Of a DNA stretch of 64,000 bases, positions 1,231-14,728 are shown one piece after another. The stretch is from contig NZ_LDPY01000001.1 of NCBI RefSeq assembly GCF_001038505.1, positions 2,790,001 to 2,854,000 of the forward strand, in the 5' to 3' direction. A program made the position numbers and the translations under genes. The notes under the pieces are model-generated. The model ran no database searches. It was not told where the DNA came from and saw nothing but the letters and a program-made list of their open reading frames with translations. Source of the DNA: Puniceibacterium sp. IMCC21224. Its GTDB lineage: Bacteria; Pseudomonadota; Alphaproteobacteria; Rhodobacterales; Rhodobacteraceae. Each line of letters opens with the position of its first letter. Position 1 is the stretch's first letter.

Positions 1231-2532
1231 TCAGTCGTTCAGCCGGTTCAACCGTGCGGTCACGCTTAGCCCGTGCGCCTCAAGACTTTCCGAGGTGGCC
1301 AGACGTTCGGCTGCGGGGCCAATCTCCCGCAGGGCCCGAGGCGTCATGCGGGCCAAAGTCGTGCGTTTGACAAAATCCAACACTGACAGTCCGCTAGAAA
1401 ACCGTGCCGAGCGGGCGGTGGGCAGCACGTGGTTCGGGCCACCGACGTAATCGCCAATCGCCTCGGGGGTCCATTGGCCCAGAAAGATTGCGCCGGCGTG
1501 GGTGATTTGTGCACTCAGGGCATCGGGGTCCGCGACACACAATTCCAGATGCTCGGGCGCAATTCTATCCGACAGTGCCGCGGCCTGCACCAGATCACGC
1601 ACCACGATCACAGCGCCGAAATCGCGCCAGCTGGCCCCGGCGATGGCGCGGCGCTCCAGCGTTTGCAGACGCTGTTCCACCGCCTGCGTCACATCCCGGC
1701 CAAATTGTGCATCGGTGGTGATCAGGATCGACTGCGCGCTTTCGTCATGTTCGGCCTGGCTCAGCAGATCGAGTGCGATCCAATCGGGATCGTTGTCCGC
1801 ATCGGCGATCACCAGAATTTCGGATGGACCCGCAATCATGTCGATCCCGACCTTGCCGAACACCCGCCGTTTCGCGGCAGCCACAAAGGCGTTGCCGGGT
1901 CCGGTGATCTTGTCCACCGACGCAATGGTCTCGGTGCCATAGGCCAACGCGGCAATCGCCTGCGCCCCGCCGATGCGATAGATTTCATCCACCCCGGCAA
2001 TCCGCGCCGCCAGCAACACCAGCGGATTCACCACCCCGTCGGGGGTCGGCACGGTGATACACAAACGCGGCACACCGGCCACCTTGGCCGGGATTGCGTT
2101 CATCAGGACTGAGGACGGATAGCTTGCCAATCCGCCAGGCACATAGAGCCCCGCCGCCGCCACAGGCGTCCAGCGCCAGCCCAGCGTCGCGCCCGCCGCA
2201 TCAGTCCATTCATCATCCTGCGGTATCTGACGGGCATGATAGGCGCGGATACGCCCGGCAGCCAGTTCAAGGGCGGCCCGATCCTCGGGGCCAACCCTGG
2301 CGCATTCGTCGTCGATCTCTTGCTGAGAAAACGCCAGCTTGCCCGGCTCCAGCGCGAGTCGGTCGAATTTCGCCGTCAGCTCAATCACCGCCTGATCGCC
2401 GCGCGCCCGGACATCCGCGATGATCCCGGCGACAATATCATCGACGTCGGGACTGTCTTCGCGTTTGGCCCCCAGCAGATGACCAAAGGCCTGCTCGAAA
2501 TTGGGTTGATCGTGGTCTAGGAACACAGGCAT
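1231..2532 (-). CDS. hisD: Histidinol dehydrogenase
   Basis: HisD catalyses the last two steps of histidine biosynthesis, oxidising L-histidinol to L-histidine with two NAD+. The 433-residue length is standard. The family signature is present at about residues 209-241 (KITGPGNAFV through the IAGPSEIL segment). Gln259 and His262 (SQAEHDES) fall at the positions known to bind zinc in the E. coli enzyme. The ATG at 2532 has an AAAGGG ribosome site. It leads a minus-strand run with UPF0262, the phosphatase and the NTF2-like gene. The 130-base gap to UPF0262 is larger than within the rest of the run. Confidence 0.97.
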   Translation of the reverse strand: MPVFLDHDQPNFEQAFGHLLGAKREDSPDVDDIVAGIIADVRARGDQAVIELTAKFDRLALEPGKLAFSQQEIDDECARVGPEDRAALELAAGRIRAYHARQIPQDDEWTDAAGATLGWRWTPVAAAGLYVPGGLASYPSSVLMNAIPAKVAGVPRLCITVPTPDGVVNPLVLLAARIAGVDEIYRIGGAQAIAALAYGTETIASVDKITGPGNAFVAAAKRRVFGKVGIDMIAGPSEILVIADADNDPDWIALDLLSQAEHDESAQSILITTDAQFGRDVTQAVEQRLQTLERRAIAGASWRDFGAVIVVRDLVQAAALSDRIAPEHLELCVADPDALSAQITHAGAIFLGQWTPEAIGDYVGGPNHVLPTARSARFSSGLSVLDFVKRTTLARMTPRALREIGPAAERLATSESLEAHGLSVTARLNRLND

Positions 2533-2609
2533 GGCGGACCCTTTCGCTTTGTCGCGTTCCTAGCGCGGCTGCGTCCGGGCCTCAAGGCGCTGCGCACCAG
2601 GGACGGGTG

Positions 2610-5600
2610 TCAAAGGTCGATCTCGATCACTCCGTCCTTCTGCGCTGCGCGGCTCTGGCACAGGATCAGCGCCCCGGCGCGCTGCGCCGCCGACAGAACA
2701 AAGTCGCGGTGTTCGACATCTCCCGACACCAATCCACATTTGCACACGCCGCACAGCCCGTCAGAGCATTTCAGATCGACGCGATAGCCGTGTTCGACCA
2801 GCACCTCGGCCGCTGACCGGTCAGCGGCGACGGCCAGATCCCGCCCCGCACGTTTGAGCCGCAGCGTGAACGGATAGTTCACCTGATCCGGCAAGTCGGG
2901 AACCGAGAAATATTCCAGATGCCGCGCCTCTTCGGGATAGCCAGCGCCGGTTGCGGCCTCAAGAACGGCGGACATGTAGCGCGCAGCACCACAGGTATAA
3001 AGGTGCCAGCCGGGATGATATTCGCCAAGCAACCGGTACATATCGGCGCGCCCGCCTTCGTCCGTGATGTGCAGCGTCACTTTGTCGGCCCAATCCATCC
3101 CAGCCAGATCGTCGAGATACCCCATCTTCGTACGGCTGCGCCCGGAATAATGCAGGGCGAAATCGCGCCCCTGCGCGTGCAATTCATGCGCCATTGCGAT
3201 CATTGGCGTGATACCGATGCCCCCGCCCATCAGCAGGCTGAACGTCGCATCGGGGACCAGCGGAAAATGGTTGATCGGATGTGAGATAAAGACCCGCCGC
3301 CCGACATCAAAGATTCGGTGCAGCAGGGCTGATCCGCCCTTGCCATGTTGTTCGTTCAGAACGCCAATCTGATAGCTGCTGCGGTCTGCCGGATCGCCGG
3401 ACATGGAATATTGACGCAGAAATTCCGGGGCGACCACGATATCCAGATGCGCGCCGGCCTGCCATTCCGGCAGATCGCCGCCATCAACCGGTCGGAATTC
3501 GTATTTGGTGATACCTTCGGCCATGACCTCGGCCTTAGTGATCTCGACCTGAATGACAGGGCTTTCGCCTGCGGCGGAATAGACATGCGCCAGGTTCCGG
3601 GTGTCGCCCTGTGCCAGTCGCGCCTTGTAGCGGACAGCAGGAATCATCGCGCGGTAGGCGGCGATCCCGGCCTCGCGGTCCATCGGAAACGGGTACGGAT
3701 AGGGGTGCGGTGCCAGCGGTGCGGGATAGACCGCCAACGTCTGGTTCTCGTATTTCAGCGTCAGCCCGGTCTGAAGCGTGCGCGCGTTGACCGGCTGCGT
3801 TGTGGGGCGGTAGCCACCATCCTGCGCCACCTCAAGATCCCACCACCATTTCTTGGCCGGGTTCAGCCCGCCATGCCCGACCGCATCGTCCAGCCGCGCC
3901 AGCACCGGGGCCGCGGCCGGCAGGTTCATCGCCGCCCAGCGGAATGGTTTTTCAGCGAACAGCCCATTCAGGTTCCAGGGGCAGGTCTTCATGCAGCGGC
4001 CACACATCGCGCCGCCGGGGGTGGTGATCCGATAAGTGGCGCATTTCTGGCTGTCGGATTTCCAGATCTCATAGCCATTGAACATCAGCTTGGGCCCGGC
4101 GGTGATTGCGCCAGACGGGCATTCGCGGGCGCATTTATTGCAGCTCTCGCAGAACTTTTGCAGGCCAAAGTCGATGGGCCTGTCATGCGCCATCGGCAGG
4201 TCCGTCGTGATCGCCCCGGATTTCAGACGCGGCCCCAGGAACGGGTTCAGGATCACCTCGCCAATGCGGCTGACCTCGCCCAGACCCGCCAGCAGCAGCA
4301 GCGGCGGTTGCAGCACTTCGCCGTCCATCACTGAATGCGCCTTGGCACTGTAGCCCAGATTGCGGATTTGCCGCGCAATGACGCCGCCCAACAGCGAAAA
4401 CCGCAGATAGGCCCGCATGGATTGCGCCACCGCGATCCAATCATCGCCCGAGGATCCCTCCATTGTCTCGAACCCCTGATCAATGATCAGCGAAATCGCC
4501 TGATCGTGGGGCGGATTGATCACCACACCGCGCGCATCATGGGAATACCATGCCCAGTCAGGGCAGCGTGAAATGCCCACGGCATCCGCGCCGAGATAAT
4601 AGCAGGTCGCCTTGACCAGTTCCGCCGCCTCCTGTGGGTCGATCTGAATCCTGTCCGGTGCCGGGTCGCCATCCTGCAGCAGAACAAATGCCCCAAGCGC
4701 GCGCCGCTGCGCCGCCGAAGGCGCGGCCTTGCGTACGTAATGCCCGCCTTTGGCACCATCCTGAAGCGTCTTGCCCATGTCACCGAACTGCGCGCGGGCG
4801 AACATGTCGGCGCGTTTGGGCACACGGGCAACGCGTGGCTCATCAATATAGGTGGTGGGTGTGTCAACGCGTTTGAGCGTCTCGAACGGATGCGCCCCGT
4901 CGACAAAGCGGCGCTTGGCATAGGGTATGGCATTCAGCGCGCTACGGGGTGCGTCGCGCCCCAACCGCCACCGCAGGCCAAAGGCCGATCCCGGCTGTGC
5001 ATCGCGCGACTTCAGTGGCAGATCAGTGGCGATTTCAAACGTCGTGGTCACCGCCGCCAGGCCAAAGCGGCTGCCGATATAGGGATGGGTCAGCACGCCG
5101 CCCTCAAGTGTGGCCAGCCCCGCCGCGACCGCCAACCGACCCAGATCAACATCAGACGTGGACACGGTATGCCCGCGCGCATCATATCCCAGAACCCGCA
5201 GGTAATTCGCAATGACAATCGCCGTCTCAGCGGCCAGCAGCCCGGCGCGATGCGCCTGCGCATCGGTGATCCAGCCAGTGCCCGGTTCTGCGGACGTTGG
5301 ATCGCGCGGGTTTTCATACAGGAACACCAGCGCATGGGTGTGACCGTCGATGGTGGTGGGCGGTGCCTCCATGCTTTCCTTGAGATCGGCCATAATCATG
5401 TCGATCCCCGAGGCCAAAGTCTTGGTCTGGCGGGTACGCAGATCCCGCGCGAGCCGCGCAACATCCGGGTTCACAAAAGGTTTCAACAGTCTGGCAGCAT
5501 TGGGCAGAGCACAGGCGCCGACCACAGCAGCATCAGCGAAATACCCAAACGCCTTGAGGTGATTGGCACGCTCGACCGGGTCGCCGGGTGCATCGGCCTG

Positions 5601-5822
5601 AACCCGATTTACCAACCCATCGCGGATCGCGTCCAGCATCGCCTGATGTTCGCGCATTGCGTTGATGATGGAGCGCGGATCGGCGGGACGGTCGAACAAC
5701 AGCGGCACCATCGGCGGAACAGTCGTCAGGTCGGGCAGATTGTTACGCCGCGCCAGACGTTCCACCGGATATGGCCCCATGTGAACCGGACGGGATTTAT
5801 GCGAGAAGAACCGCAGGGTCAT
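2610..5822 (-). CDS. Self-sufficient cobalamin-dependent reductive dehalogenase with fused NAD(P)H:ferredoxin reductase
   Basis: A 1070-residue multidomain protein. Residues about 70-290 form a degenerate copy of the cobalamin domain, and residues about 400-545 the working one, with a KATCYYLGADAVGI motif. Two ferredoxin motifs follow: C558-X2-C-X2-C-X3-CP and C594...C607-X2-C610-X3-C614-P. Residues about 745-970 resemble an FNR/phthalate-dioxygenase reductase (RQYSMSG flavin motif, GGGIGITPM nucleotide motif). The C-terminus is a plant-type [2Fe-2S] domain (C1019, C1024, C1027, C1055). This architecture matches BhbA-type aerobic catabolic dehalogenases, which reduce ortho-halophenols. Y426 and K494 are candidates for the proton-donor pair. 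There is no Tat signal and no membrane anchor gene, so it is probably cytosolic. The ATG at 5822 has a GGAG site. Epoxyqueuosine reductase is excluded by length and the reductase fusion. Confidence 0.93.
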   Translation of the reverse strand: MTLRFFSHKSRPVHMGPYPVERLARRNNLPDLTTVPPMVPLLFDRPADPRSIINAMREHQAMLDAIRDGLVNRVQADAPGDPVERANHLKAFGYFADAAVVGACALPNAARLLKPFVNPDVARLARDLRTRQTKTLASGIDMIMADLKESMEAPPTTIDGHTHALVFLYENPRDPTSAEPGTGWITDAQAHRAGLLAAETAIVIANYLRVLGYDARGHTVSTSDVDLGRLAVAAGLATLEGGVLTHPYIGSRFGLAAVTTTFEIATDLPLKSRDAQPGSAFGLRWRLGRDAPRSALNAIPYAKRRFVDGAHPFETLKRVDTPTTYIDEPRVARVPKRADMFARAQFGDMGKTLQDGAKGGHYVRKAAPSAAQRRALGAFVLLQDGDPAPDRIQIDPQEAAELVKATCYYLGADAVGISRCPDWAWYSHDARGVVINPPHDQAISLIIDQGFETMEGSSGDDWIAVAQSMRAYLRFSLLGGVIARQIRNLGYSAKAHSVMDGEVLQPPLLLLAGLGEVSRIGEVILNPFLGPRLKSGAITTDLPMAHDRPIDFGLQKFCESCNKCARECPSGAITAGPKLMFNGYEIWKSDSQKCATYRITTPGGAMCGRCMKTCPWNLNGLFAEKPFRWAAMNLPAAAPVLARLDDAVGHGGLNPAKKWWWDLEVAQDGGYRPTTQPVNARTLQTGLTLKYENQTLAVYPAPLAPHPYPYPFPMDREAGIAAYRAMIPAVRYKARLAQGDTRNLAHVYSAAGESPVIQVEITKAEVMAEGITKYEFRPVDGGDLPEWQAGAHLDIVVAPEFLRQYSMSGDPADRSSYQIGVLNEQHGKGGSALLHRIFDVGRRVFISHPINHFPLVPDATFSLLMGGGIGITPMIAMAHELHAQGRDFALHYSGRSRTKMGYLDDLAGMDWADKVTLHITDEGGRADMYRLLGEYHPGWHLYTCGAARYMSAVLEAATGAGYPEEARHLEYFSVPDLPDQVNYPFTLRLKRAGRDLAVAADRSAAEVLVEHGYRVDLKCSDGLCGVCKCGLVSGDVEHRDFVLSAAQRAGALILCQSRAAQKDGVIEIDL

Positions 5823-5930
5823 GCGGGGGCGCTCCGTTGTTCGCGGCCTGTGGCATGATCCCACCGCCCCTGAACGGGTCCAGGGCGTCAGATGACAGCC
5901 ATCCTATTGCTCGGACGAAAAGCTATCAGC

Positions 5931-5958
5931 GGGGGCGGCAAAGTCAATCGCCGCCCCC
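5931..5958 (-). terminator. GC hairpin after the RND pump gene
   Basis: Perfect 9-bp arms GGGGGCGGC and GCCGCCCCC enclose a 10-base loop, 19 bases after the RND pump stop codon. The following bases on the minus strand are not a clean T tract, so it may be a weak terminator or an mRNA-stabilising hairpin. It separates the pump from the dehalogenase gene, whose own promoter would have to lie between here and 5823. Confidence 0.5.
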
Positions 5959-5977
5959 CGATGTCACGACCCGCAGG

Positions 5978-8900
5978 TCATTCGGCCGGGGTCACAACCC
6001 CGGTCGGCGCTTTTTCTTTGGCTGGTTTACCGCCGAAACGTGCCACCATGGCAAAGAAGTAGGGCACAAACAGCACACCAAAGATCGTTGCAGCAATGGT
6101 TCCGGCCAACACACCGGCACCAATCGCCGTGCGCCCGCCGGACCCTGCGCCCGAGCTGAGCAGCAGCGGCAACACGCCCAGCGAAAACGCCATAGACGTC
6201 ATGATGATCGGGCGGAACCGTTGGCGCGCGGCATCAACGGCGGCGTCGACAACCGACAGCCCGTCCTCTCGCCGGTCACGGGCGAATTCGACGATCAGGA
6301 TCGCGTTCTTGCCCGTCAGACCGATCACCGTCAGCAGACCAACCTGAAAGAACACGCCATTTTCGAACCCGCCCAGCCAGGCACCGCACAGCGCCCCCAA
6401 CACACCGATCGGCATCGCAAGCATCACCGCGAACGGGATCGACCAGCTTTCGTATAGCGCCGCCAGCGACAGAAAGACCGCCGCCAGGGACAACGCATAC
6501 AGCAGCGGTGCCTGATTGCCCGATTGCTGCTCTTCGAGCGACAGACCGGTCCAGGCGACCTGATATCCGGGGGGGAGTTGCTGAACCAGCCGCTCGATCT
6601 CGGCAATCGCCTCGCCGGTACTGACGCCGGGCGCGGGAGACCCCTGGATCTGCATCGACGGCACACCATTGTAGCGGTTCACGCCCTGTGGTCCGAACTG
6701 CCAGCTTCCGTCGGCAAAGTTCGAGAAAGGCACCAGACCGCCGCTCGCGTTGCGCACGCGCCACTTCTCAAGATCCGATGGGCCAGAGCGCGACGCAGGT
6801 TCCCCCTGCACATAGACCCGTTTGATCCGTCCCTCATCGACAAAGTCGTTGACGTAGCGACCTGCCCAGGCAGTGGTCAGCAGATTGCCCACATCGGTGG
6901 CGCTGACCCCCATCGCCCCGGCGCGACGCCAGTCGATATCAAGGTTGAACTGCGACGCATCTTCGAGCCCGCTGGGCCGTGCCGACCCGATCAGTGGGCT
7001 TTGCGCCGCCATCCCCAGCATCTGGTTGCGTGCATCCAGCAACTGTTCGTGGGTCTGTCCGGCCCGCGCCTGCAGGAAAAAGTCAAAGCCCGAGACGTTG
7101 CCAAGCTCGATCACCGACGGCGGCACGATGGGGAACACCATCGCATCCTGAATCTGACTGAATGCGCCAAAGGCCCGCCCCGCGAGCGCCTGCGCACTTA
7201 GGTTCGGCGTCTCGCGCTCCGACCAGTCCTTGAGCCTGACAAAGACCAGACCCATGTTCTGCCCCTGCCCGGCAAAGCTAAACCCAGCAACACCAAAAAC
7301 CGATTCCACCATGTCGGATTCGTTGTTGAGGTAATAATCCTCAACTTTGGCAACCACATCCAGCGTCCGCTCTGCCGTTGCACCGGTCGGCCCCTGAATC
7401 AGGGTAAAGAGGATCCCCTGATCTTCGTCCGGCAAGAACCCCTGCGGCGTGCGCATGAACAGGGTTACCATTGACGCGATGATCATCAGATAGACGATGC
7501 CAACGCGCACAGGGCGCCGCACGATCCAGCCGACGCTGCGCCCGTAACCAGCCAACACACCGTCAAAGCCACGATTGAACAGACCAAAAGGTCCGCGCCG
7601 GGGCGCATCATGATCACCAGCCCTGAGCATGCTGGCACACAGCGCCGGTGTCAGGGTCAACGCCACCACCACCGACAGCGACATCGCCGAAATGATGGTG
7701 ATCGCGAATTGTTTGTAGATCACCCCGGTCGAGCCGGGAAAGAACGCCATCGGCACGAACACTGCCGACAGCACCACCGCAATGCCGATCAAGGCACCGG
7801 TGATCTGGTCCATCGACTTGCGCGTCGCCTCGAGCGGGCCGATCTTGTCCTGCTGCATGATCCGTTCGACGTTTTCGACCACAACAATCGCGTCGTCGAC
7901 CAACAGACCGATGGCCAGGACCATCGCCAGCATGGTCAGCGTATTGATCGAAAATCCAAACGCCGCCATCACGCCAAAGGTACCCAGCAACACGACCGGC
8001 ACGGCAAGCGTCGGGATCAGCGTGGCGCGGAAATTCTGGAGAAAGAGGTACATCACCAGGAACACCAGCACGATCGCCTCGATCAGCGTCTTGATGACCT
8101 CTTCGATCGAAATCGTCACAAAGGGCGTGGTGTCATAAGGGATGACGTATTCGACGCCATCGGGGAAATAGGCCGCGAGTTCTTCGATCCGCGCAGATAC
8201 GTCAGCAGCAGTATCGAGCGCGTTGGCCCCAGGCGCGAGGCTGATCGCCATACCCGCCGATGGCTTGCGGTTGAATCGCGAGATGGTGGCATAGCTCTCG
8301 GCACCGATTTCGACCCGCGCGACATCGTTCAACAGCACCAGTCCACCATCGGTTTCGGCGCGCAGTACAATCTGGCGGAAATCCTCGGGTGAGGTCAGCA
8401 GCGATTGCGCCGTGATCGTGGCGTTCAGCATCTGGCCTTCGACCGCCGGGCGCGACCCGAACGATCCGGCCGATATCTGCGCATTCTCTGCCGAAACCGC
8501 GGCCACCACATCACTCGGGGTCAGTTCAAATGCAGCCAGTTTGACCGGGTCGAGCCAGATCCGCATGGCGTATTGCGCCCCGAACACCTGCACGCTGCCC
8601 ACACCCTCAACTCGGCTGATTTCATTCACCATCCGCGAGTTGAGGTAATCCCCCAGGTCAGTTTCGTCATAATCGCCTTTTTGTGCGATCAGCGCGACCA
8701 CCATCAGGAACCCGGCCGAGGATTTGCGCACGGAAACACCCTGCCGCTGCACCGGTTCGGGCAACAGCGCACTGGCCTGCGCCAGTTTGTTCTGCACCTG
8801 AACCTGCGCGATATCGGGATCGGTTCCCGTCTCGAATGTGAGGGTCACACTGGCCGAACCGGATGAGGTCGAGCTGGACGAGATATAGCGCAGCCCGTCC

Positions 8901-9115
8901 AGACCGGTCATCTGCTGTTCGATCACCTGGGTGACGGTATTCGCCACGGTTTCTGCCGAGGCCCCCGGATAGCTCGCGTTGACCGATACGGTCGGCGGCG
9001 CGATCTGGGGGTATTGTGCCACTGGAAGGGTAAGAACCGACAAAATGCCGATCCCCATGATGAAGATTGCGATGACCCATGCAAAGATTGGTCGATCGAT
9101 AAAGAAACGGGCCAT
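5978..9115 (-). CDS. RND multidrug efflux pump, inner-membrane transporter (HAE1 family)
   Basis: At 1045 residues this is the normal size for AcrB/MexB-type transporters. It starts MARFFIDRPIFAWVIAIFIM, the typical first transmembrane helix, and has the proton-relay pair D407-D408 in GLLVDDAIVVVENVER, at the same numbers as in AcrB. Two large periplasmic loops and a second six-helix half follow, ending in a lysine-rich tail. It should export hydrophobic compounds from the periplasm and inner membrane using proton influx. The adaptor gene lies 21 bases upstream. No outer-membrane channel gene is in the window, so a TolC-like partner must be encoded elsewhere. Confidence 0.97.
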   Translation of the reverse strand: MARFFIDRPIFAWVIAIFIMGIGILSVLTLPVAQYPQIAPPTVSVNASYPGASAETVANTVTQVIEQQMTGLDGLRYISSSSTSSGSASVTLTFETGTDPDIAQVQVQNKLAQASALLPEPVQRQGVSVRKSSAGFLMVVALIAQKGDYDETDLGDYLNSRMVNEISRVEGVGSVQVFGAQYAMRIWLDPVKLAAFELTPSDVVAAVSAENAQISAGSFGSRPAVEGQMLNATITAQSLLTSPEDFRQIVLRAETDGGLVLLNDVARVEIGAESYATISRFNRKPSAGMAISLAPGANALDTAADVSARIEELAAYFPDGVEYVIPYDTTPFVTISIEEVIKTLIEAIVLVFLVMYLFLQNFRATLIPTLAVPVVLLGTFGVMAAFGFSINTLTMLAMVLAIGLLVDDAIVVVENVERIMQQDKIGPLEATRKSMDQITGALIGIAVVLSAVFVPMAFFPGSTGVIYKQFAITIISAMSLSVVVALTLTPALCASMLRAGDHDAPRRGPFGLFNRGFDGVLAGYGRSVGWIVRRPVRVGIVYLMIIASMVTLFMRTPQGFLPDEDQGILFTLIQGPTGATAERTLDVVAKVEDYYLNNESDMVESVFGVAGFSFAGQGQNMGLVFVRLKDWSERETPNLSAQALAGRAFGAFSQIQDAMVFPIVPPSVIELGNVSGFDFFLQARAGQTHEQLLDARNQMLGMAAQSPLIGSARPSGLEDASQFNLDIDWRRAGAMGVSATDVGNLLTTAWAGRYVNDFVDEGRIKRVYVQGEPASRSGPSDLEKWRVRNASGGLVPFSNFADGSWQFGPQGVNRYNGVPSMQIQGSPAPGVSTGEAIAEIERLVQQLPPGYQVAWTGLSLEEQQSGNQAPLLYALSLAAVFLSLAALYESWSIPFAVMLAMPIGVLGALCGAWLGGFENGVFFQVGLLTVIGLTGKNAILIVEFARDRREDGLSVVDAAVDAARQRFRPIIMTSMAFSLGVLPLLLSSGAGSGGRTAIGAGVLAGTIAATIFGVLFVPYFFAMVARFGGKPAKEKAPTGVVTPAE

Positions 9116-9136
9116 GCGCGTTGCTCCGGTCTGAAA

Positions 9137-10312
9137 TTATTCGGTTTTTTCGGCGCTTGCACTGGCATCGGCAGGGGTATCCGCCTGCGCCAGAACACGC
9201 TCTTCGGGGGCGACGGTGGCACCTGGGGCCGCCTTTTGCAGACCTGCGACGATCACACGATCCCCGGCAGACAGCCCGCCATTGACCACCCAATCGGCCC
9301 CCAGATCCTGAAGCACCTCCAGGGGACGCACCTCGACCACATTGTCGGCATTAACCAGCATTGCCGTCGGCTGACCACGACGGTCACGGCTTACCGCCTC
9401 TTGTGGGATCAGAAAAGCGCCCTCGAGTGTGCTGGTCGGCATCTCGACCTGCACATACATCCCCGGCAGCAGCAGTTTGTCCGGATTTGCGAATTCCATC
9501 CGCAGGACCACCACGCCGGTCTGTTCGTCCACATCGGGTTCCGCCGCCCGCAACGTGCCCGTCTGGTCATAGCCGCCGCCATCGGCCAGCGTCAGCGTCA
9601 CCTCGCGCGGGGTATCCCCCAGACGCACATCGGTGTTGCCGCGCTTCCACTCCAGCAGCTCTGCCGCGGACTGGGTGACGTCGACATAGACCGGATCAAT
9701 GTTGCGGATCACGGCCATCGGCTCGGACTGGCTGGCGGTCACCAGCGAACCGGTGCTGGTAAGAGAGCGGCCGATTTCCCCCGACAGACGGGCACGGATT
9801 TCGGTCCGGTCCAGCTCGATCCTGGCCAGTTGCAACTGCGCCTCGGCAGATTGCAGCCCAGCCGCTGCACTGTCGCGGGTGGCAATGGCCGCGTCCAGGG
9901 CCTGCGCACTGGCAACATTGCGCTGCGACAATTCCTCAAAGCGCTGAAGGTCCTTTTGCGCGGCAGCGTTCTGTGCGCGGGCCTGGGCCACAGCGGCCTC
10001 GGCCTGGGCGACGGCGGCGCGGTGGGTCGCGGGGTCGATGGTATAAAGAACATCACCCGCCTTGACCGGCCCCCCCTCCTGAAACCGCTGTTCAAGGACA
10101 ATCCCGGCAACCTGCGGCCGTACCTCGGCCTGGGCCGATGCGACTATGCGCCCCGGCAGGGTTGTGGTCAGCGCCACGGACTGGGGCTGCATAGTGATCA
10201 CCGTCACAGCAGCAGGCGGGCGATCCTGTGCCTGCACGCCCATCGGAACGGCGACAAAGGCAAGAGTTACGCAAAACGCCGCACGGCGCGACAATGACAA
10301 ACGAAAAGACAT
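9137..10312 (-). CDS. RND efflux periplasmic adaptor subunit (membrane fusion protein)
   Basis: The 391-residue product begins with a signal peptide (MSFRLSLSRRAAFC... cleaved near GVQAQ, residue 26). Next come the HlyD/AcrA barrel-sandwich strands (VVASAQAEVRPQVAGIV), a helical hairpin rich in Ala, Gln and Glu (about 95-165) and the beta-barrel segments. It bridges the RND pump to an outer-membrane channel. The frame is open 17 codons upstream, but the ATG at 10312 begins directly at the signal peptide and is preferred. The signal peptide lacks an obvious lipobox cysteine, unlike AcrA and MexA. It forms an operon with the downstream pump. Confidence 0.94.
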   Translation of the reverse strand: MSFRLSLSRRAAFCVTLAFVAVPMGVQAQDRPPAAVTVITMQPQSVALTTTLPGRIVASAQAEVRPQVAGIVLEQRFQEGGPVKAGDVLYTIDPATHRAAVAQAEAAVAQARAQNAAAQKDLQRFEELSQRNVASAQALDAAIATRDSAAAGLQSAEAQLQLARIELDRTEIRARLSGEIGRSLTSTGSLVTASQSEPMAVIRNIDPVYVDVTQSAAELLEWKRGNTDVRLGDTPREVTLTLADGGGYDQTGTLRAAEPDVDEQTGVVVLRMEFANPDKLLLPGMYVQVEMPTSTLEGAFLIPQEAVSRDRRGQPTAMLVNADNVVEVRPLEVLQDLGADWVVNGGLSAGDRVIVAGLQKAAPGATVAPEERVLAQADTPADASASAEKTE

Positions 10313-10397
10313 CAGCTCGGAATCCTGTGATTTACGAGGGGAGGAGGAGGATTTTGGAATCATTCTAAAGATTTGCTGCGTTGCAGCAAGATCAATT

Positions 10398-11651
10398 TTA
10401 CCGATCAGGCGAGGTCACCGGACTGGTGCGTGCCAGCGGCGGCACACCACCGCCTGCGGCTGGGGCAACCGGCTCGATCCGCTGGTAAATCGCAAACGCG
10501 ATACAGGCGGTCGCGCCCATCACCGGAATAAGCAACCCCATTGCGATCACGGCATTGCCCATCAGCGCACCCAGCGACCCGACCAACAGCCCCGACCCCA
10601 TCTGGATAAAGCCCAGCATAGATGCCGCCGCCCCTGCTTCGCGGCCAAACGGTGCCAGTGCAACTGTGGACATAGCCGGCATGACAAAGGCGATGCCGAA
10701 GGCATAGATCGATACCGGGATCATGACGTGCAGAAAGCTCGGTGGCCAGAGCAGCAACGTCATCGTCCCGACGCTGCCGAGTGCGATGAACATCAATCCC
10801 GGACCAACGAGGCGGGTCGCCCCGACGCGCGCCATCAGCCGCCGCACCACCAAAGATCCGGCGAAAAAGCTGCCCGATTGGGCAAGCATCGACAGACCGA
10901 ACTGCGATGGGCTAAGCCCGACCTTGCCCATCAGTACGAACGGTAAAAACGTGGCCTGCGCATAGAGCGCCCCAAGCGCGCCACCCATGACCGCGGCCGC
11001 GCACAGAAACTGCCGGTTTGTCAGCACCAGACGATAGGTCCGGCCCAGGTCCGGCAGATTCAGCCGGCTGCGGTCCGGTACAACTGTTTCCTTGAGCGCG
11101 ACCATCACAACAAGTATCACAACGATGCCAAGCACAGCCATCAGCAGAAAGATCGACCGCCAGCCAAAGACCGCCAGCAACAGCCCACCCAGCGATGGCG
11201 CCAGTGCCGGGCCAACCGCCAGAATGATCCCGATCAGATTCATGATCCGCGACGATTGTTCGTTCGTGAACAAATCGCGCACCAACGCCCGCGATATCGC
11301 CACCCCGACCGACGCGCCAACCCCCTGAAGGAAGCGTGCAACGATCAGGGTTTCGACGCTCGGAGCCACCAGCGCCAAAAGGCTCGCCACGCAATACAAC
11401 GCCATGAACGCGATGGTGATCGGTCGCCGTCCCAGCGCATCCGACAGCGGCCCAGCGATCAACTGGGCGCAGGCGAATCCGCCGAAATACAGCGTCAGCG
11501 TCATCTTGATCACGGCTTCGGTCGACCCGAACGCATGCACTAATTCGGTCATCGCCGGTGTATATAACGCCATCGACACCGGGCCGACCGCGACCAGCAT
11601 CGCGCCAATCAGGCTAACGCGGCGTTCGCTCATCACCGGGGAGGTGGTCAT
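10398..11651 (-). CDS. Bcr/CflA-type MFS drug exporter
   Basis: A 417-residue protein with about twelve hydrophobic segments and the MFS loop motif between helices 2 and 3 (GPLSDALGRRP). After helix 4 it reads RFLQGVGASVGVAISRALVRD, characteristic of the Bcr/CflA drug:H+ antiporter group. The ATG at 11651 overlaps the marR stop by four bases (ATGA), so translation is coupled and the N-terminal extension of the longer frame belongs to marR. It probably exports small toxic compounds under MarR control. The adaptor of the RND pump starts 85 bases downstream and may be co-transcribed. Confidence 0.92.
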   Translation of the reverse strand: MTTSPVMSERRVSLIGAMLVAVGPVSMALYTPAMTELVHAFGSTEAVIKMTLTLYFGGFACAQLIAGPLSDALGRRPITIAFMALYCVASLLALVAPSVETLIVARFLQGVGASVGVAISRALVRDLFTNEQSSRIMNLIGIILAVGPALAPSLGGLLLAVFGWRSIFLLMAVLGIVVILVVMVALKETVVPDRSRLNLPDLGRTYRLVLTNRQFLCAAAVMGGALGALYAQATFLPFVLMGKVGLSPSQFGLSMLAQSGSFFAGSLVVRRLMARVGATRLVGPGLMFIALGSVGTMTLLLWPPSFLHVMIPVSIYAFGIAFVMPAMSTVALAPFGREAGAAASMLGFIQMGSGLLVGSLGALMGNAVIAMGLLIPVMGATACIAFAIYQRIEPVAPAAGGGVPPLARTSPVTSPDR

Positions 11652-12136
11652 CGTTTCAATTCCTTTTGGGCAACGCACTGGCAGGCGGCGTCCTGGCGCG
11701 CAGCATCCAGATTGCTGCGCAGCTTCATGGCGAGATGGCGGAACATCGCCTGTTCCTCGTCCGAAAAACCCTGCATCGCGACTGCATGTGCCTTTTGGCC
11801 CACCGCAGCGATCTGAACCAGCGTATCCTGAGCCGCGTCGGTCAGCGATACAATCTTGGCGCGCCGGTCGTCTGGATCGACATTGCGCACCACCAGACCT
11901 GCCACTTCGAGCCGGTCGAGAAAGCAGGTCATACTCATCGGCGCCAGACCCAGCTGTTCGGCCAGGACATGCTGACGCACGGCGCCACACCGCGCCATAT
12001 AGACCAGCACCTTGGCTTCGGCTGATGTGACCGTCAGCGCGGCCAGATCGATCTCACGCTCGAACGCCGCGCGCATCAGGCGCGCGATATCCTTGATGAG
12101 AAACCCGAGGGCATCTGGGTCAACAGCTTTGTGCAT
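11648..12136 (-). CDS. MarR-family transcriptional regulator
   Basis: A 162-residue protein with a winged helix-turn-helix at about residues 38-105. The recognition region reads VLAEQLGLAPMSMTCFLDRLE and the wing DPDDRRAKIVSLTDAA, both diagnostic for MarR. Such proteins usually repress an adjacent efflux operon and release DNA on binding a phenolic or other small ligand. Here it is translationally coupled to the MFS exporter and followed on the same strand by the RND genes and rdhA. An AT-rich inverted repeat over its likely -10 element is a candidate operator. Confidence 0.93.
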   Translation of the reverse strand: MHKAVDPDALGFLIKDIARLMRAAFEREIDLAALTVTSAEAKVLVYMARCGAVRQHVLAEQLGLAPMSMTCFLDRLEVAGLVVRNVDPDDRRAKIVSLTDAAQDTLVQIAAVGQKAHAVAMQGFSDEEQAMFRHLAMKLRSNLDAARQDAACQCVAQKELKR

Positions 12137-12517: not shown

Positions 12518-12842
12518 AACGTCATAATTTATCCTTTTATTTTATGGCGTTACCGCCAGACTTGACGAACCTTACCGGGAAGTTTGTCAAGTTCTATTCG
12601 GGTTTTACCCCGACCATTTTATTGAACGCCGAGTCGGACAGACCCTTGCGCCCGAAGGTTCCGCAATACCTTTTGCGCCTCGGACAAAGTGACGTGGCCG
12701 CTCACGATCTCGAAAGGTGTCCCCCGCCTCAGCAATCCGGCGCCCTGTTTTGAGCATCCGCGCTTCCATCAGCCGCCGCAGGATCTGGAACTCAGACGGC
12801 AGGTCCCATTCCGCCAATGGGGCTGCCTGGTCCAAGGCGTTG
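12518..12842. other. Intergenic scar without recognisable gene
   Basis: This stretch separates the tRNA from the first IS fragment. Short open frames exist on both strands (for example 12605-12949 on the minus strand), but none has a ribosome site, a family motif or convincing composition. The longest runs into the IS end at 12843. It is probably decayed mobile DNA. Confidence 0.5.
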
Positions 12843-13065
12843 TGTCTGAGGCCAGCGCCAGTGGGACGGATTTGAGGATTTGAACACCTGAGGATTTCTG
12901 GTTCATCATAGCTTTCAAGGAGCGAAGTTGAACAAGACATCCGGAACATCGAAAGACGCCGCTGACAAGCTGGTTAAGACCATCCGTCGCAAGACGCGTC
13001 AGTCCTATTCGGCGGAAGAGAAGATCCGCATCGTTCTGGCAGGTCTGCGTAGAGACGACACCATC
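12843..13065 (+). mobile_element. IS3-family element, 5' end with truncated orfA
   Basis: The segment starts at a TGTCTGAGG terminus and encodes the first 47 residues of an IS3-type orfA from 12928, with a TTG in place of the start ATG (NKTSGTSKDAADKLV, then YSAEEKIRIVLAGLR). A near-identical end lies at 60672-60796, where the start codon is ATG. After RDDTI the coding sequence stops abruptly and joins an unrelated transposase fragment. The rest of orfA, all of orfB and the right inverted repeat are missing, so the element is dead. Confidence 0.8.
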
Positions 13066-13278: not shown

Positions 13279-13954
13279 ATGGCCAAATCTGCGATCGAAA
13301 TGATCGGTGTGAACAAGTGGTTCGGCGATTTTCACGTTCACAAGGATATCAATCTGACCGTGGCTTCTGGCCAGCATGTGGTGATCTGCGGCCCTCTGGA
13401 TCGGGTAAACCCACCGTCGTGCGCTGTATCAACCGGTTTGAGGTGCATCAACAGGGCACGATCCGCGTCGACGGAATGGACCTGACCGTCAACGTGCGCT
13501 CTGTCGCGGCGATCACGTCCGAGGTTGGCGTGGTTTTTCAGCAGTTCAACCTGTTTCCGCATCTGAGCGTGCTTGAGAATCGGATGCCCGGCCCGATCTA
13601 TATCGAATTTGTCCGCGCCGGCGTTCAGTCCATTGTCAGGGGCCAGGTCGAAGCGGCGCACTCCATCCGACTGAACTGCATGCAGACCATGCACTATGCG
13701 ATCCTGCCGCAGGCGGTCCGGCACATTTTTCCGCCACTGACCAACCAATTTATCTATATCGTCAAGATGTCGTCCTTTGCCTCGGCCATCGGGATGCAGG
13801 AATAGACACGACGTGCGAACGAGTTGGTGGTGACGGAATATCGCCCGCTGCAAATCTACACGCTGCGGACCCTGGAAATCTGGTACTGGCTCTGATCATC
13901 TGCGCCGGGGTGCGCTGGCAGAAACGGAAAATGGGCTCGGACAAGAGGGGATGA
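13279..13954 (+). pseudogene. Polar amino acid ABC transporter: ATPase-permease fusion pseudogene
   Basis: The ATG at 13279 begins a GlnQ-like ATPase (MAKSAIEMIGVNKWFGDFHV). Near 13395 one base is lost in the Walker A codons, shifting the frame. In the new frame it continues through RCINRFEVHQQGTIRVDG and the Q-loop ([17 protein letters not shown]). At about 13600 it jumps without warning into the C-terminal part of a permease, including an EAA loop (VRAGVQSIVRGQVEAAHSI). An internal TAG at 13803-13805 and another frame change precede the hydrophobic end. The Walker B, signature motif and transmembrane helices in between have been deleted. It resembles the intact transporter at 16.1-19.5 kb and is probably a decayed paralogue. 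Confidence 0.85.
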
Positions 13955-14152: not shown

Positions 14153-14728
14153 ATGAGCGCCTGGATCAGAATGATTTCCGAAGACGAGGCCGGCCCCCGC
14201 CTGCTCGAACTGCTGGACAAGGCGCGCACGCCGCATGGCACGGTGGATACCGTGATGCGGGTACATTCGCTGCGCCCCGAAACGATGCACGGGCATGTCA
14301 CTCTTTATCGGTCGGTGCTGCATTCAGACGACAACACCCTGCCGTTTTGGTTCCTTGAGGTGGTCGCCAGCTACACCTCGATCCTGAATGACTGCACCTA
14401 TTCGCTGACGCATCACTTCATGAATGTGCGTAATCTGCTCAAGGATCAGCCGCGCTCGGACCGGATATTTACCGCGCTCAAGGCCGCGCGGCCCGAGGAT
14501 GAGTTTGCAGGCAAGGAATTGGCGCTGCTGCGGTACACAGCCAAGCTGACCGAGAATGTGGGCAGGATGGTGAAATCGGATTTTGAGGCGCTCAAGATCG
14601 CGGGATGCGAAGATGCCGAAATCCTTGAGGTCAATCAGGTCTGCGCCTATTTCAACTATTCCAACCGCCTGCTGAATGGTCTGGGTGCGACGACCGAAAA
14701 CGACGTGGTGGGGTATTACAAGTCCTGA
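14153..14728 (+). CDS. AhpD/carboxymuconolactone-decarboxylase-like protein (peroxidase-related family)
   Basis: The 191-residue product (MSAWIRMISEDEAGPRLLEL) has the all-helical layout of the CMD/AhpD family. The central HSLRPETMHGHVTLYRSVLH leads into a helix where the canonical CxxxH is expected, here NDCTYSLTHH (one cysteine plus histidines). The usual CxxC pair is not seen, so a disulfide-reductase mechanism like AhpD is uncertain. A good AAGGA ribosome site precedes the ATG. Its last codons overlap the 3' end of the convergent deacylase gene by 13 bases. Members are often linked to oxidative stress or small-molecule catabolism, but the substrate here is unknown. Confidence 0.82.
   Translation: MSAWIRMISEDEAGPRLLELLDKARTPHGTVDTVMRVHSLRPETMHGHVTLYRSVLHSDDNTLPFWFLEVVASYTSILNDCTYSLTHHFMNVRNLLKDQPRSDRIFTALKAARPEDEFAGKELALLRYTAKLTENVGRMVKSDFEALKIAGCEDAEILEVNQVCAYFNYSNRLLNGLGATTENDVVGYYKS

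Follow-up and report, generated by a model that had tools for sequence, protein, structure and literature searches.

The rdhA gene lies in a window of 64,000 nucleotides from Puniceibacterium sp. IMCC21224 (contig NZ_LDPY01000001.1, positions 2,790,001 to 2,854,000; positions below are those of the window). Its product is very probably a cytoplasmic enzyme of the BhbA/JtRdhA type, a self-sufficient catabolic reductive dehalogenase, which likely debrominates or deiodinates phenols in catabolism or detoxification, not in respiration. The family score, matches to solved structures, a phylogenetic tree and a structure model all pointed to this enzyme type.

Identification of rdhA

The rdhA frame (2610..5822) was located on the minus strand, with ATG at 5822, stop codon at 2610-2612 and no internal stop, and encoded 1070 aa. 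Coordinates and length agreed exactly with those of an earlier sequence-only reading, which had not stated the strand. The plus-strand reading of the same stretch was interrupted by stops. A GGAG motif ended 9 nt 5' of the ATG, and the start Met was the same as in the consensus of relatives. One site was found in a sigma-70 scan against 3.1 expected, which is uninformative.

RdhA scored 208.6 bits with the NCBIfam model TIGR02486 (reductive dehalogenase; cut-off 160.35). The Pfam double 4Fe-4S and 2Fe-2S domains were both above cut-off, and the NCBIfam flavin reductase models matched only below it. Pfam PF13486 gave no match in the genome, which carries no information because the model was equally silent in the controls (0/14 genomes). 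Homologues numbered 2967 at E <= 0.001 among 7995 candidates scored. A chance frame was rejected on the TIGR02486 score, these homologues and the phmmer matches to NpRdhA and 2PIA given below. Base composition of rdhA (GC 0.625; GC at third codon positions 0.723) lay inside the span of values seen in 11 other window genes and gave no sign of a compositionally foreign gene.

Domain architecture and predicted structure

Residues 1-740 (3603..5822) comprised an N-terminal half and a cobalamin/two-[4Fe-4S] core, and spanned the whole of NpRdhA. They were followed in the same chain by a module like phthalate dioxygenase reductase (PDOR; residues 753-1070, 2613..3566) with the flavin motif RQYS (803-806), the NAD(P) motif GGIGITP (867-873) and, from Pfam and alignments, the [2Fe-2S] cysteines 1019, 1024, 1027 and 1055 (residues 1019-1055, 2658..2768). 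Against solved structures, phmmer matched residues 2-107 and 160-736 to NpRdhA (E 2.3e-155), and residues 755-1066 to phthalate dioxygenase reductase 2PIA (E 3.7e-52).

Between the two NpRdhA segments lay a stretch (residues 108-159, 5346..5501) with about 42 residues more than NpRdhA, as seen by phmmer and alignment. It was complete in 17/17 fused sequences aligned, mostly absent in the unfused sequence L012 and not present in NpRdhA, for which the phmmer alignment was the source since the NpRdhA row of the multiple alignment held the core only. A specific insert is described for RdhA-PDOR fusions (PMC10463259).

A first structure model, built with 45 close relatives, had a pLDDT of 69.8 with a low core; it gave way to a model that drew on 108 more diverse sequences and had a pLDDT of 91.2. 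The final model is predicted to adopt the NpRdhA fold across 674-684 residues, and its residues 1-740 aligned to the whole NpRdhA chain, which would include the N-terminal duplicated domain. The absence of a cobalamin pocket in the model, which the sequence-only reading had named as evidence against itself, was not seen, the model being one that contained no cofactor. The fusion of a cobalamin/two-[4Fe-4S] dehalogenase to a flavin/[2Fe-2S] NAD(P)H reductase, which that reading had proposed, was confirmed together with its domain order by both sequence and model. A structure search with Foldseek also listed PceA; PceA had no row in VIA-align, from which its absence does not follow.

Active site

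The putative catalytic residues were Tyr472 (4407-4409), Lys534 (4221-4223) and Arg598 (4029-4031), together in 4029..4409, which correspond to Y426, K488 and R552 of NpRdhA; the three were kept in comparison with both BhbA and NpRdhA, a check that the sequence-only reading had proposed. The conserved pocket residues of NpRdhA are given as F291, S422, M423, Y426, K488 and R552 (PMC10463259), and its substrate complex is described with the last five, not F291 (PMC7565698). All six were identical in RdhA (F341, S468, M469, Y472, K534 and R598), and each was invariant in 108/108 aligned sequences, which were hand-picked from the matches and included 26 unfused ones. The cysteines of the two [4Fe-4S] clusters, eight in all (558, 561, 564, 568, 594, 607, 610 and 614; residues 558-617, 3972..4151), did not vary in this alignment either.

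Two other positions would fit an enzyme of the same type that acts on other substrates, for example chlorinated phenols or some larger natural product. Position 419 (NpRdhA numbering) was Val in RdhA, Ala in NpRdhA and Ser in BhbA, and varied across the 108 rows (40 Val, 27 Ser, 26 Gly, 14 Ala, 1 Cys); A419 of NpRdhA is the site of a substrate-scope variant (PMC7565698). NpRdhA K307, at the pocket entrance, was replaced by Ala357 in RdhA. However, all the residues holding the phenolic hydroxyl were kept, and JtRdhA, described as an enzyme of this type, was inactive on the chlorinated compounds tested (PMC10463259). Such a shifted range is rather unlikely.

Phylogeny

In a maximum-likelihood tree of the catalytic core from 31 sequences, RdhA fell in a clade of 17 fused enzymes, set apart from the rest with 100/100 support. 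One branch of this clade held BhbA and a Nitratireductor sequence (98/100), and the other held RdhA with all other fused sequences (99.9/100). NpRdhA and three catabolic-type sequences without a reductase in frame stood outside. Further out still lay eight RdhA-like proteins, each 322-431 aa long, and two QueG proteins. The sequence-only reading had offered BhbA and NpRdhA as known examples. Kinship with BhbA holds over the full length at 50.9% identity; NpRdhA is no fusion, and JtRdhA had not been named.

A second RdhA-like group of 393-431 aa was observed in related genomes (L020, L151, L152, L153, L155, L157 and L158). It kept the Tyr and all cluster cysteines, with Arg in the K488 column and Trp in the R552 column, and these sequences probably act on a different substrate.

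Proposed function and cofactor supply

The cofactors, electron path, substrates, oxygen tolerance and physiological role proposed for RdhA are drawn by analogy from JtRdhA and NpRdhA. Hydride would be passed from NAD(P)H to the flavin of the C-terminal module, and single electrons would then reach base-off cobalamin by way of its [2Fe-2S] cluster and the pair of [4Fe-4S] clusters. A phenolic substrate would ligate cobalt through its ortho-halogen, with its hydroxyl held by Lys534, Arg598 and Ser468, and Tyr472 would donate a proton in place of the halogen. Ortho-brominated or -iodinated phenols and hydroxybenzoates are the likely substrates. The genome contained pobA and pcaHG, with pobA (613.9 bits, cut-off 538.7) and pcaH (351.1 bits, cut-off 296.4) 2.4 kb from each other, so 4-hydroxybenzoate could be used through a pobA/pcaHG route. 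Products such as 4-hydroxybenzoate would enter this route, by which the enzyme would serve the catabolism or detoxification of organobromines, not respiration. Removal of natural organobromines, the role that the sequence-only reading had suggested, is plausible.

Several points weigh against this assignment. No catabolic gene adjoined rdhA in the window. JtRdhA has been purified and assayed, whereas RdhA is known from its sequence, and the likeness between them is one of description. The Roseobacter debrominase Ros_A3X954 is oxygen-sensitive and was assayed with methyl viologen and titanium citrate (PMC13101508); because it lost activity on oxygen exposure, the oxygen tolerance of RdhA is uncertain. 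Finally, cobN was not found in the genome by TIGR02257 or PF02514, both of which found it in 5/14 controls, so cobalamin supply may depend on salvage. The genome did have cobQ (G000:C1 at about 608-611 kb, L147) beside cobP-like and BtuF-like genes read by eye, and the strain may salvage corrinoids while keeping a B12-dependent dehalogenase.

The neighbours of rdhA in relatives varied across 88 loci, namely 80 loci of named relatives (some on short contigs), seven plasmid loci and the window. Because the neighbour profiles came from genes within the loci being counted and had no chance level, the counts are descriptive. A TRAP transporter gene was within 10 kb of rdhA in 16/88, and a TRAP large permease was directly upstream on the same strand in 6/88 (L024, L030, L038, L042, L100 and L140), which belonged to Rhodobacterales, one Granulosicoccaceae metagenome-assembled genome (MAG) and two Hyphomicrobiales MAGs. 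The pairing in three orders is a possible mobile uptake-plus-dehalogenase cassette; nothing was found on rdhA with a TRAP transporter in Roseobacter in the open-licence literature, where papers on reductive dehalogenases and TRAP transporters in general were listed. One MarR type was near rdhA in 11/88 loci and one LysR type in 17/88, and the genes for BhbA and the Nitratireductor OM-1 enzyme were near aromatic ring-cleavage genes. In our reading these transporter, regulator and ring-cleavage neighbours favour a general role in taking up and catabolising a halogenated aromatic acid. Within the 23 kb scanned, the window had no TRAP gene and no MarR of the relatives' type.

Genomic neighbourhood

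Downstream of rdhA were hisD (histidinol dehydrogenase, 1231..2532, minus strand), a UPF0262 gene and a low-molecular-weight phosphatase gene. Upstream on the same strand were an RND efflux permease (5978..9115, TIGR00915), an RND periplasmic adaptor (9137..10363, TIGR01730), a Bcr/CflA-type MFS exporter (10398..11651, TIGR00710 244.8 bits, cut-off 200.9) and a MarR-family regulator (11648..12136). The likely ATG of the MFS exporter shared a 4-bp overlap with the stop of marR.

In the three genus mates examined (G001, G002 and G004) hisD was preceded by a small gene and another gene, which we take from their sequences to be DUF2948 and murA. This pair was at C1:906807 in the present genome, about 1.9 Mb from hisD, so that the conserved hisD block was cut. 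The RND/adaptor pair was located in G001 and G004 beside a pair that is presumably gbcAB-like, and was gone from that place in the present genome. DNA similarity to the compared stretches of the mates ended at 2555, just below rdhA, and resumed at 6052 inside the RND gene, so rdhA lies at a breakpoint joining segments that are apart in relatives. The rearrangement, with hisD split from murA and the RND/adaptor pair moved, spanned window positions 2533-10363.

The four efflux and regulator genes could instead mean that rdhA and the MarR-MFS-RND cluster together let the cell survive toxic halogenated phenols, by efflux plus debromination rather than by feeding on them. MarR proteins often sense phenolic compounds, and Tritonibacter mobilis (L076) has, just upstream of rdhA and divergent from it, an RND permease 51% and an adaptor 36% identical to those of the window. 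Yet a strong hairpin (5931..5958, z -3.70, 0/200 shuffles as stable), possibly a terminator with no clean U tract, parted the RND gene from rdhA, and the RND/adaptor pair occurred elsewhere in genus mates that lack rdhA, the present neighbourhood being at the breakpoint. Similar RND genes were near rdhA in only 2/80 loci of named relatives (L064 and L076), and the window MarR, distantly like the rdhA-linked MarR of some relatives, shared no more than 32% identity over 97 aa with the closest of them. We consider stress defence unlikely as the main role. Because of the hairpin, the breakpoint and the two loci, an operon of rdhA and the efflux genes was not accepted as proven, and the link of the RND gene to rdhA is unproven.

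A more specific version is very doubtful, namely that an acquired dehalogenase has been built into a MarR-MFS-RND-rdhA unit that pumps out and debrominates toxic natural bromophenols in a strain that lacks the corrin cobaltochelatase CobN and depends on salvaged B12 for this defence. In the open-licence literature nothing was found on pentabromopseudilin resistance by debromination.

A respiratory, membrane-anchored reductive dehalogenase using its substrate as terminal electron acceptor, for which the shared superfamily (TIGR02486) could speak, has next to no chance. As the sequence-only reading had said, no twin-arginine translocation (Tat) motif was seen by eye in the first 40 or so residues and no rdhB adjoined the gene, since gaps of only 77 bp to hisD and 155 bp to the RND gene leave no room for one (a distant rdhB was not searched for); the fusion to an NAD(P)H reductase and the place in the catabolic clade also speak against it, and the respiratory assignment was rejected. 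Just as hard to credit is an epoxyqueuosine reductase, or some other fusion of ferredoxin type that has no dehalogenase activity. The match to the QueG equivalog model TIGR00276, the one point in its favour, was weak (27.8 bits, cut-off 200), and the tree placed the two QueG sequences, which lack the Lys and Arg, on a separate and distant branch, contrary to the grouping that would have counted against the sequence-only reading.

Further features were observed away from rdhA. At 12841-12998 lay a repeat (up to about 157 bp) that came back at 11 other genome sites, mostly at 90% identity; a frame nearby presumably is an IS3-type transposase fragment, with no family match. A 162-aa frame at 13317-13805 fused an N-terminal piece of an ABC ATPase to a piece of an amino-acid permease, which is deletion debris. 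At 14153-14728, about 8 kb from rdhA, a peroxidase-related enzyme (TIGR01926) was encoded; it had 41% identity to one whose gene closely follows rdhA on a plasmid of Aminobacter.

Distribution

A match at E <= 1e-200 was found in 112/295 genomes drawn across the same family (294 genera), the present genome included; five of the matches listed were only partial-length. It is thus likely that soluble, NAD(P)H-driven organobromine removal is frequent, though patchy, in the family. Four genus mates, three of them 99-100% complete and the fourth (G003) 78%, gave no RdhA match and only weak reductase matches. Named relatives with homologues included Jannaschia, Yoonia, Sulfitobacter and Ruegeria. 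The sequence-only reading had called the host a probable marine roseobacter, which stands at family level with Jannaschia, Sulfitobacter and Yoonia as nearest named relatives, the marine habitat being taken from these relatives only.

Homologues with about 69-76% identity were also present in Hyphomicrobiales and in Granulosicoccus or Granulosicoccaceae, which we take to be Gammaproteobacteria. Among 1072 plasmid records with any match, 8 held one over at least 80% of RdhA. These taxa and the plasmid copies point to horizontal spread of rdhA.

Comparison with characterised enzymes

RdhA is one more clear member of an enzyme type already characterised, and as a single gene it does not alter any concept. 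Organobromine removal by such enzymes matters for the bromine cycle and for enzymes against brominated and iodinated pollutants.

To our knowledge, JtRdhA of Jhaorihella thermophila is the closest characterised self-sufficient enzyme; its name was absent among the homologue names shown, where most entries carry none. It is a marine Rhodobacterales enzyme published in 2023, self-sufficient and NADPH-driven, that works on bromo- and iodophenols both in air and in its absence and enables growth of E. coli W on 3-bromo-4-hydroxyphenylacetate (PMC10463259). By description JtRdhA (WP_104007082) resembles RdhA in its duplicated cobalamin domain and PDOR, lack of a Tat signal, conserved Y426/K488/R552, fusion-specific insert and Rhodobacterales host (PMC10463259).

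BhbA of Comamonas sp. 7D-2 (WP_015585978) had the same length, domain order and pocket residues as RdhA, but belonged to the other subclade of fused enzymes and had Ser, not Val, at 419; unlike rdhA here, its gene is plasmid-borne, with protocatechuate 4,5-dioxygenase genes nearby. NpRdhA of Nitratireductor pacificus (4RAS, 6ZXU) differed in having neither the reductase module nor the 108-159 insert. Phthalate dioxygenase reductase (2PIA), the counterpart of the C-terminal module, is a separate protein, and its overall root mean square deviation from the RdhA model (12.4 A) may reflect subdomains placed differently.

Since JtRdhA has been characterised and putative bhbA homologues are stated to be widely distributed in the Roseobacter clade (PMC13101508), the enzyme type is already known. 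The self-sufficient dehalogenase is one described before and widespread, and what is locally distinctive is its absence in the four genus mates and its position at a breakpoint beside efflux genes.

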